The notes beneath the pieces are model-generated. The model was given only the letters and a program-made list of their open reading frames with translations, was not told where the DNA came from and searched no databases. Shown in pieces: positions 22,181-24,619 of a DNA stretch of 38,110 nt. Origin of the DNA: an uncultured Chloroflexus sp. Its GTDB lineage: Bacteria; Chloroflexota; Chloroflexia; Chloroflexales; Chloroflexaceae. Position 1 is the first letter of the stretch, and every line of letters begins with the position of its first letter. A program made the translations under genes and the position numbers. Location of the stretch: the NCBI RefSeq assembly GCF_937129525.1, contig NZ_CAKZNK010000030.1:1-38110 (forward strand). The letters are read 5' to 3'.

Positions 22181-22280
22181 AAGCACACTCCGTGTATCAC
22201 CGCATCGACAGCCCATTGCTGTCACTACCAGCTCGACCAGCACAGGGGTCTGGTTCCGGTTGCCCGGATTGAATCGCTAT

Positions 22281-22374: not shown

Positions 22375-22528
22375 TGCTATGCTGCTTCGTTGCAGGCAGA
22401 TGTGTTCGCTGTGAGCATTGCCGTAGGTCAAGTTCGCCCGTCGGATGATGAAAATGCTGCTTTTCAATACTGCGCGGCATTGCTGCTATGGCTTCTGGCT
22501 CACGCTGAGCTAGAAGATTTTTGTTGTC

Positions 22529-24619
22529 GTGAACATCGTAAACCTTCCACAACGACCGGTTTATCCATTTTCCGCCATTGTCGGCCAAGAGCGGCTCAAG
22601 CGCGCCCTGATTCTCAATGCTATCAACCCGCGCATCGGCGGGGTCTTGATACGCGGCGAGAAGGGCACAGCCAAGTCAACTGCGGTGCGCGCGCTGACGC
22701 GCCTGCTGCCATCGATCAAGGTCGTGGTCGATTGCCCCTACAGTTGCGATCCTGACGCGCCCGCAACGCTGTGTGCCGATTGCCAGGCCCGGCTTGCCCA
22801 AGGCCTCTTGCCGACGATGGTGCGACCAACCCGGCTGGTCGAATTGCCGGTCTCCGCATCGGAAGATCGGGTGGTTGGTTCGCTTGACCTCGAACACGCA
22901 ATTACCGAAGGTCAGCGCCGGTTTGAGCCTGGTTTGCTGGCGCAGGTCAACCGTGGCGTGCTCTACGTCGATGAGGTCAATCTCCTCGATGACCATCTGG
23001 TCGATCTGTTGCTCGATGCGGCGGCGATGGGTGTTAACACCGTCGAACGGGAAGGGGTCAGCGTTTCCCATCCGGCCCGGTTTATCCTCGTCGGCACCAT
23101 GAATCCCGAAGAGGGCGAGCTTCGGCCCCAACTCCTCGATCGATTCGGGCTGGCAGTGGAGGTTGTCGGGTTGACCGATGTCAATGATCGGGTGGCCGTC
23201 ATTGAGCGCCGGATGGCTTACGAGGCCGATCCCGCCAGCTTCATCCGACAATGGCATGAAGCCGAAGAGTCGCTGGCGCAACGGATCGCTGCCGCTCGCG
23301 CCCTCTTGCCGCAGGTACGTATCGACCGCACCGATATGGCGGTGGTCGCCAGCCTCTGTATCGAGATGAGCGTTGATGGCCATCGGGCCGATCTAACGAT
23401 CCTGGAAACGGCGCGCACTCATGCCGCCTGGAGCGGTCGGCGGACACTGGCAGCCGAAGATATTCGCCTGGCCGCTGAGCTGGCGCTTCCCCATCGAATG
23501 CGGCGCCAGCCCTTTGGCGAGGTCAAACTTGATGAGCAACGGATGGCCAGTATCCTCGATCAATATGGCAAACGGGCCGAGGAGATCAGCGCTCAGGCTG
23601 AGGTAAAAAAAAACCTTGACTTAAATGATGTCGGCAATAATAACGATGAGGGCGGCAACGAGAGCGGTGGTGGCAGCACAACCGTTCCGGTTGGCGGCGC
23701 CGGCATGCCAGAAACGGCAACCCCTACCGACGAGCGTCAGACCGGCGGCGCCGAGTATAAGGCGAATGAGATCTTCAAGCCGCGTCGCCTTGAAGCGACG
23801 CCAGATCGCGCCCAACGTCGCGCCCCCGGACGCCGGTCGCGCACGCGAACAAAACGCAAACAGGGTCGCTATATCACCAGTCGCCGCGCCGAGCGCGTCA
23901 CCGATCTGGCGCTTGACGCAACCTTACGCGCAGCGGCTATCTATCAGCGCAAACGACGTATCGAGCTGCGGCATACCATTGGGATACCGCACCGCCGTCA
24001 CCCGAAGATCCTTATTAAACGATCTGATTTGCGCCAGAAGGTGCGCGTCCGCCGCACTCGCAATGCCGTCTGCTTCGTGGTTGATGCGAGCTGGAGTATG
24101 GCCGCCGAAGAACGGATGCAGGCCACGAAAGCCGCTGTGCTCTCGTTGTTGCGTGATGCGTATCAGCGCCGCGACCAGGTCGGCCTGATCAGCTTCCAGC
24201 GCGACTATGCGCGCATCCTGCTACCGCTGACCAACAGCGTCGAGCTGGCCCAGCGCCGGTTGCAATCGATGCCCACCGGCGGCAAAACGCCGCTGTCACG
24301 CGGCCTGCTCACCGCTTTCGAGCTGCTGGAACGGGCTCGCCGACGCGATGCTGAAGTGGTACCGTTGATGGTACTATTAACTGATGGGCAGGCCAATGTT
24401 GCAATTTCTGACCTGCCACCGCAACAGGAAGCGTATCGGATTGCCGAGATGATCGCTGCGCACCAGATTCATGCAATTGTGATCGATACCGAGCATCCGA
24501 GCTTCGAACGCGGTTTGTCACGACGATTGGCCGAACATCTGCGCGGAGTCTATTACCGATTGGAAGATCTGCATGATGATGGCCTTGTCCGGGCTGTGCG
24601 ACAGCAAATGCGCGTATGA
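22529..24619 (+). CDS. ChlI-ChlD-type fused chelatase subunit (AAA+ and VWA)
   Basis: Medium-type subunit of magnesium/cobalt chelatase, 696 residues. The N-terminal AAA+ domain has Walker [10 protein letters not shown] (43-51), Walker [11 protein letters not shown], sensor [18 protein letters not shown] and the usual Cys-rich insertion ([17 protein letters not shown]). A low-complexity linker rich in Asn, Gly and acidic residues follows (about 362-400), then a basic stretch ([18 protein letters not shown]). The C-terminal von Willebrand A domain has a complete MIDAS: Asp519-x-Ser-x-Ser523 in VDASWSM, a Thr in [10 protein letters not shown] and Asp in LLTDGQANV. The AAA+ and VWA parts together power metal insertion by a BchH- or CobN-type large subunit, not present here. 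GTG 22529 is the start; its ribosome-binding site is weak. A nine-A run sits at the domain junction. Confidence 0.9.
23605..23619 (+). other. Candidate -1 frameshift/slippage site
   Basis: Nine consecutive A residues (23605-23613) read in frame as gtA-AAA-AAA-AAC, giving an A-AAA-AAA slippery heptamer. After a -1 slip the next codons are AAA, CCT and TGA (stop at 23617-23619). The product would be 363 residues, containing the whole AAA+ domain. Loss or gain of one A in the transcript also gives a stop within four codons. A GAGGAG lies about 20 bases upstream. No strong downstream hairpin is obvious. Confidence 0.55.

Follow-up and report, generated by a model that had tools for sequence, protein, structure and literature searches.

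The chlD gene in the 38,110-nucleotide stretch of Chloroflexus DNA analyzed here (the window) very probably yields both a long and a short chelatase subunit by slippage at a run of nine adenines (A9). Normal reading through A9 would produce a 696-residue medium (D/CobT-like) subunit, and a fraction of decoding events would slip there, because the ribosome shifts by −1 on the heptamer A_AAA_AAA, because RNA polymerase inserts an extra A, or through both. Slipped decoding would stop two codons on in the −1 frame, resulting in a 363-residue small (I/CobS-like) subunit. The sequence itself, its rarity in the genome, and nucleotide-level selection are shown here, whereas the existence of both products, their ratio, CobN as the partner, and the slipping machine are inferred. 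That chlD genes can be recoded by a −1 frameshift is already known; in the known genes, termed fs-chlD, the small subunit is read without a shift and the medium subunit requires one, whereas in Chloroflexus chlD the unshifted product would be medium and the slipped product small. This reversed polarity, its repeated origin, and a possible split between two slipping machines are new as far as the literature searches show.

Architecture of the chlD Gene and Its Slip Site

The features of the gene are collected in Table 1. In a profile search, the long product passes the curated cut-off of TIGR02442 (putative cobaltochelatase), with 801.7 bits versus 779.45, and falls short of the Mg-chelatase D and I thresholds; the TIGR02442 model covers the long product only. 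The Walker A, Walker B, and DRF motifs are present and intact in the N-terminal half.

Table 1. Coordinates of the chlD gene, its domains, and the elements around the A9 run (window positions)
Feature	Position	Strand	Basis or comment
chlD/cobaltochelatase medium-subunit gene	22529..24619	+	ORF with GTG start; 0-frame long product of 696 aa
AAA+ (ChlI-like) domain	22562..23524	+	TIGR02030, residues 12-332
Shine-Dalgarno-like element CGAGGAGA	23578..23585	+	19 nt before the heptamer; duplex -8.7 kcal/mol; possible stimulator
A9 run	23605..23613	+	At the junction of the AAA+ and VWA parts
In-frame slippery heptamer A_AAA_AAA	23605-23611	+	Within the A9 run
−1 frame stop TGA	23617..23619	+	−1 frame reads AAA CCT TGA
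+1 frame stop TAA	23622..23624	+	Reached after loss of one A or gain of two in the transcript
Predicted short product, ChlI-like, 363 aa	22529..23619	+	Translation after a −1 slip or one added A
Variable linker, AAA+ to VWA parts	23620..24067	+	Alignment columns past the run; domain limits
VWA domain of the long product	24068..24412	+	PF00092, residues 514-628

The run is framed as GTA (359), AAA (360), AAA (361), and AAC (362), and coordinates and translation agree in both position and framing with an earlier reading of the window made from the sequence alone. The same holds for its claim that a −1 slip would give 363 residues and end at the TGA. According to the computed translations, the product ends in KKKP-stop when the transcript gains an A and in KKTLT-stop when it loses one. 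Because gain and loss of an A both lead to nearby stops, slippage in either direction would truncate the product at once, as that reading had also claimed. The identical 363-residue product, with the C terminus EVKKKP, would arise whether the ribosome slips by −1 or the transcript gains one A. The computed mass of this product, 40.0 kDa, matches the 40 kDa first proposed, whereas the full-length product comes to 77.7 kDa rather than 76 kDa.

Between positions 22200 and 24900, no match to Rfam was found, and promoter and terminator scans of the region returned counts at chance level. A terminator-like hairpin with a T tail is located at window positions 22492-22526, directly 5′ of the GTG start of chlD; such sites occur in chance number in the region.

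Polarity among Related Genes

Relatives were sought in 61 genomes, the genome of the window and 60 others, of which 59 match at E 1e-100; in an order-level search, 78 of 82 genomes match at 1e-112. The 118 loci classified comprise one group of 59 and 59 of a further 61 loci, among which L162 and L212 gave no N/C pair. An in-phase heptamer with both parts in the same frame is found in 42 of the 118, a heptamer with the D part in another frame in 56, and no heptamer in 20. Setting aside G013, G016, and G024, which have frame breaks inside the gene that are probably draft-assembly errors, leaves 41 reversed, 54 standard, and 20 slip-free genes. Within the order, the whole protein is in one frame in most members of family f1, to which the window belongs; in f2, f3, and nearly all of f4, the D part is in the −1 frame.

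By definition of the class, all 41 reversed genes, from 18 genera, carry an in-phase A_AAA_AAR heptamer. Counted from the start of the heptamer, every one of them has a −1 stop no more than 33 nt away, and 33 have it no more than 12 nt away. Of the 54 standard genes, 53 have a 0-frame stop at a distance of 24 nt or less. With a close stop in both arrangements, the small product would end just past the run either way. In the genus of the window, the reversed arrangement is consistent in eight of eight genomes, three of which are one-contig assemblies. Outside f1, reversed genes are seen in G065 (f4), G138 (f11), G248, the pair G260/G315, and the named MAG CSMAG_2311; G260 agrees with G315, and for the single drafts G020, G065, G138, G248, and CSMAG_2311 a sequencing error in the run could partly explain the polarity.

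A maximum-likelihood tree of 68 representatives (quick search) places all of the slip-site genes, standard and reversed, in one clade of Chloroflexota chlD (51 of 68 rows, SH-aLRT 97), and the 17 slip-free rows fall outside it. About eight changes of polarity are needed on this tree, at least six by starred branches, and some of these changes may be assembly errors since several reversed genes are single drafts. The tree indicates several separate origins of reversed genes, all sharing one design.

Two further sets of genes were noticed in the survey. The chlD-like L206 (G188) falls within the slip-site clade and has its D part in the +1 frame without an A-run slip site, possibly as a result of +1 recoding or error. 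Three archaeal loci, L092, L104, and L112, contain an in-frame chlD with an in-phase A6-A7 heptamer close to the junction, followed after 12-30 nt by −1 stops. These are possible reversed cases outside Chloroflexota, and could also have arisen by chance because the genomes are AT-richer.

Ribosome or RNA Polymerase

Pure −1 ribosomal frameshifting of the E. coli dnaX kind, stimulated by the Shine-Dalgarno-like element and/or by downstream structure, has about an even chance of being the full account of the chlD gene. Consistent with this account, the in-phase heptamer is kept in reversed genes with runs of only A7 or A8 as well, and a Shine-Dalgarno-like site of -7 to -10 kcal/mol is present 15-22 nt upstream in seven of eight genus members. 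The usual spacing in dnaX is shorter than the 19 nt of the Chloroflexus element. Reversed genes as a group, however, show no excess of Shine-Dalgarno-like sites (median -2.9 versus -3.0 for background) and no excess of structure downstream of the run (median z about 0).

A strong downstream hairpin as a general feature of the reversed genes is rejected on the latter result. The earlier remark that no strong hairpin is visible was roughly right. In the window, a 110-nt segment starting at the run has a folding energy of -37.4 kcal/mol (z -2.29), but its stem begins ~14 nt past the run, and the eight genus members fold differently in this region. A7 relatives in families f3 and f27 do have downstream hairpins, with mean z down to -4.84, which argues for the ribosome. 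The association of structure with short runs (A7-8 versus A9+) is seen among representatives of genus and run length (p 0.018) and fails when families are the units (p 0.17).

The alternative, in which RNA polymerase adds or drops A's and the out-of-frame mRNAs end early to give the small subunit, as with Thermus dnaX, is possible but on the whole doubtful. Three observations point toward it. First, the whole genome (4,479,672 bases, both strands) contains exactly one A9/T9 run, inside chlD, as if A9 were otherwise avoided. In 100 dinucleotide shuffles of the window, 0.10 such runs occurred per window, with one run in 8 of the 100, and scaling this rate by length, which is our own extrapolation, predicts ~12 per genome. 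The sole A9 is likewise in chlD in the genus-mates G001 and G005, and the chlD A9 is one of two in G003 and G006. Second, Thermus dnaX has an A9 with stops in both non-zero frames (PMC5009743, PMC1088944). Third, near +1 stops are enriched: a +1 stop within 24 nt is found in 29 of 35 reversed f1 genes versus a background of 0.24, and, among 51 genus and run-length representatives, in 36 of 42 with A9+ versus 3 of 9 with A7-8, measured from the run end (Fisher p 0.003; by family p 0.010, values that are optimistic because the representatives are related).

Against the polymerase stand the g5 genes, all five of which are without a near +1 stop, and the genes with shorter runs that still keep the design, namely the genus member G004, with A8 and the heptamer A_AAA_AAG at the junction, and two A7 reversed genes. 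In addition, one of the two E. coli-type heptamers, A_AAA_AAA or A_AAA_AAG, is always in phase, which a polymerase would not need.

Provided that slippage takes place, the ribosome is slightly favored as the main agent; a mainly polymerase-driven event appears rather unlikely, and a contribution of both more doubtful still. On balance, we lean to the ribosome as the machine.

Selection on the Run and the −1 Stop

In a codon alignment of the 35 reversed (in-frame) f1 genes, both Lys positions within the run have A as the last codon base in all 35 genes, with no AAG, the first being aligned as Gln CAA in three rows, whereas six other invariant Lys columns have AAA in only 10 to 20 of 34-35 rows and AAG in the rest. 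The codon that provides the T of the −1 stop is T-ending in 34 of 35 genes across seven amino acids; none of 193 control columns, each holding four or more amino acids, reaches 90% (maximum 85%). The stop itself is mostly TGA, with TAG in G029 and TAA in G018. In a weaker test by genus representative, a −1 stop lies within 12 nt in 12 of 18 (background 0.20) and a +1 stop within 15 nt in 12 of 18 (background 0.17). Synonymous randomization of the sequence after the run gives a combined Fisher p of 0.059 for the −1 stop (by genus, the genes being related and not independent), a weak result because Asp and Glu codons make a −1 TGA easy.

On this comparative evidence, the alignment shows that the A run and the −1 stop are both under selection at the nucleotide level. 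Both are kept beyond what Lys codons and the amino acid sequence call for, the comparison that the sequence-only reading had proposed as a check, and its central proposal, that A-run slippage lets one gene yield a medium as well as a small subunit, gains support from the f1 comparison.

It is improbable that the run is a fossil, inherited from a frameshifting ancestor by a gene that is now a plain fusion. The long product is indeed already in frame, and the C. aggregans and Rubrobacter proteins are cited as fusions (PMC3711429), but the run is kept at the nucleotide level across 13 f1 genera together with a new −1 stop, which is absent from the polarity of the ancestor, and the repeated appearance of the same design also speaks against a relic. 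A Lys-rich basic hinge required in the protein itself, with the A run following from AT-biased Lys codons, is very improbable indeed: Lys is conserved at the site and AAA is common in some genomes, but Lys elsewhere in the genes of 18 genus representatives is encoded by 120 AAA versus 168 AAG, the codon before the run, which specifies six different amino acids, ends in A in 30 of 35 genes, and the third codon of the run changes to Asn.

A Probable Cobalt Chelatase

The dual-product gene most likely encodes a class I chelatase that functions as a cobaltochelatase with CobN, as judged from gene content. A CobN is present in the genome (1217 bits in the genome search, 1223 bits as a protein) within the cobalamin cluster, and no match to the CobS or CobT models was found in the genome of the window at E 0.001, in a search whose control was positive in Caulobacter. 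Since CobN is present and CobS and CobT were not found, cobalt insertion is likely. The chlD gene is not adjacent to cobN; its neighbors are mreB and a gene for an S1-domain protein. CobN exceeds its cut-off in 27 of 61 genomes, and some genomes hold the slip gene without such a CobN.

The genome also encodes a BchI and BchD pair (Mg-chelatase) elsewhere, both over their cut-offs, with BchI in a Mg-chelatase operon, and a second, divergent I-like gene of 349 residues (L068, 8092-9138, G000 C79) that is under all family cut-offs. This gene adjoins a YifB-type gene, and no D partner was noticed beside it. Against a dual product, BchI or the second I-like protein could supply the small subunit. 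The suggestion that cobN might occur without a dedicated small subunit therefore stands in part: CobN is there and CobS and CobT were not found, but other I-type genes exist, so that it holds, by inference, for the cobalt enzyme only.

The slip site as a replacement for a missing chlI, considered over 37 genomes, is not a clean relationship; an extra, separate chlI at E 1e-60 accompanies a slip-free chlD in 5 of 18 genomes (G165, G247, G172, G201, and G216), and absence of the slip site thus does not neatly track presence of chlI. Intact Walker motifs as a sign of dual use were rejected as a discriminator because slip-free relatives have them too: they are intact in 41 of 41 reversed genes and in 53 of 54 standard genes, where only a truncated locus deviates, and all 20 slip-free genes retain Walker A and B.

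In G026, a second chelatase operon (L214, 3675-10287) has a chlI as well as a distinct chlD-like gene next to a lower-scoring CobN (922 bits). By coordinates, chlI is also adjacent to cobN in G011, G012, G033, and G036, with the D-like neighbor looked at in G026 only. Four of these genomes (G011, G026, G033, and G036) carry g5 slip genes, the genes without a near +1 stop.

In G003, which we take to be C. aurantiacus J-10-fl, the chlD gene at 153,639-155,723 fits Caur_0117, an identification by position and size. Caur_0117 is named bchI in the genome paper (PMC3150298) and appears as BchD-2, expressed mainly in lag phase, in a proteome study (PMC9316378). The same genome paper gives 'cobT (Caur_2578)' as a cobaltochelatase subunit (PMC3150298). 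In G003, the neighbor of cobN (L215, 5069-6124) matches TIGR03160 with 481.5 bits, the CobT that is a dimethylbenzimidazole phosphoribosyltransferase, and the listing of Caur_2578 therefore looks like a name clash.

Implications and Comparison with Known Systems

If the proposed reading of chlD is correct, the small and medium subunits of the Chloroflexus cobaltochelatase, misassigned in the genome paper, come from one gene, and a switch between ribosomal and polymerase slippage becomes testable between close relatives. Surveys detect recoded chlD by split reading frames, so that reversed genes look like ordinary fused genes. In PMC9227772, the search for fs-chlD genes relied on neighboring hits and allowed at most one frameshift. 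A broader reading is offered tentatively, as more doubtful than the dual product itself: Chloroflexota may conserve the need for two chlD subunits and not the decoding solution, the frame having flipped about eight times with new close stops, with A9+ lineages moving to polymerase slippage (both other frames closed, no hairpin) and A7 lineages staying ribosomal. The apparent 'fusion' chlD genes of databases would then include unrecognized dual-product genes.

Chloroflexus chlD and the fs-chlD genes (Antonov 2013/2020, Kuznetsov 2022) share their family, the place of the slip site, and its nature as an A run, as well as the same two predicted products and the same proposed role as a cobaltochelatase. 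Reviewed fs-chlD genes include those of Anaerolineaceae of Chloroflexota (PMC9227772), and chlD cassettes in E. coli reporters are described as giving 63, 40, and 10% frameshift product for 11, 9, and 7 A, respectively (PMC3711429). The Chloroflexus gene has the A_AAA_AAR site at the ChlI/ChlD junction and shares one clade with the genes in the −1 arrangement, but its medium part is not in the −1 frame. As its N and C parts share one frame, it would work like an fs-chlD gene in reverse and is not a plain member. The sequence-only reading, which took the gene to use the same trick as published chlD, was thus right about the slip and missed that the published cases have the opposite polarity. 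Relatives in the clade depend on this slip with the roles exchanged, which is counted here in favor of the dual product. The available text of PMC9227772 makes no mention of the reversed arrangement, and no published description of a reversed chlD was found in the chlD/Mg-chelatase frameshifting literature searched, most subscription papers lying outside the search.

The closest parallels in polarity are found in another gene, dnaX. Similar to E. coli dnaX, in which the stop is one codon past the −1 shift, the Chloroflexus gene has its long product in frame, a slip site of the A_AAA_AAR type, and an immediate −1 stop, which is conserved within a few codons. The conserved Shine-Dalgarno spacing and hairpin of E. 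coli dnaX (PMC5009743) are not evident in reversed chlD as a group. Heterogeneous transcripts are a feature of Thermus dnaX, and one genus of the reversed family, g5, differs from it in lacking the near +1 stop. Like Thermus thermophilus dnaX, Chloroflexus chlD combines an A9 run with a long product in frame and stops in both other frames. For dnaX, a reversal of roles at near 50% slippage has been described (PMC5009743, PMC1088944). Should the two products be real, chlD would join dnaX as a second housekeeping gene with dual output by either polarity, and perhaps by either machine.
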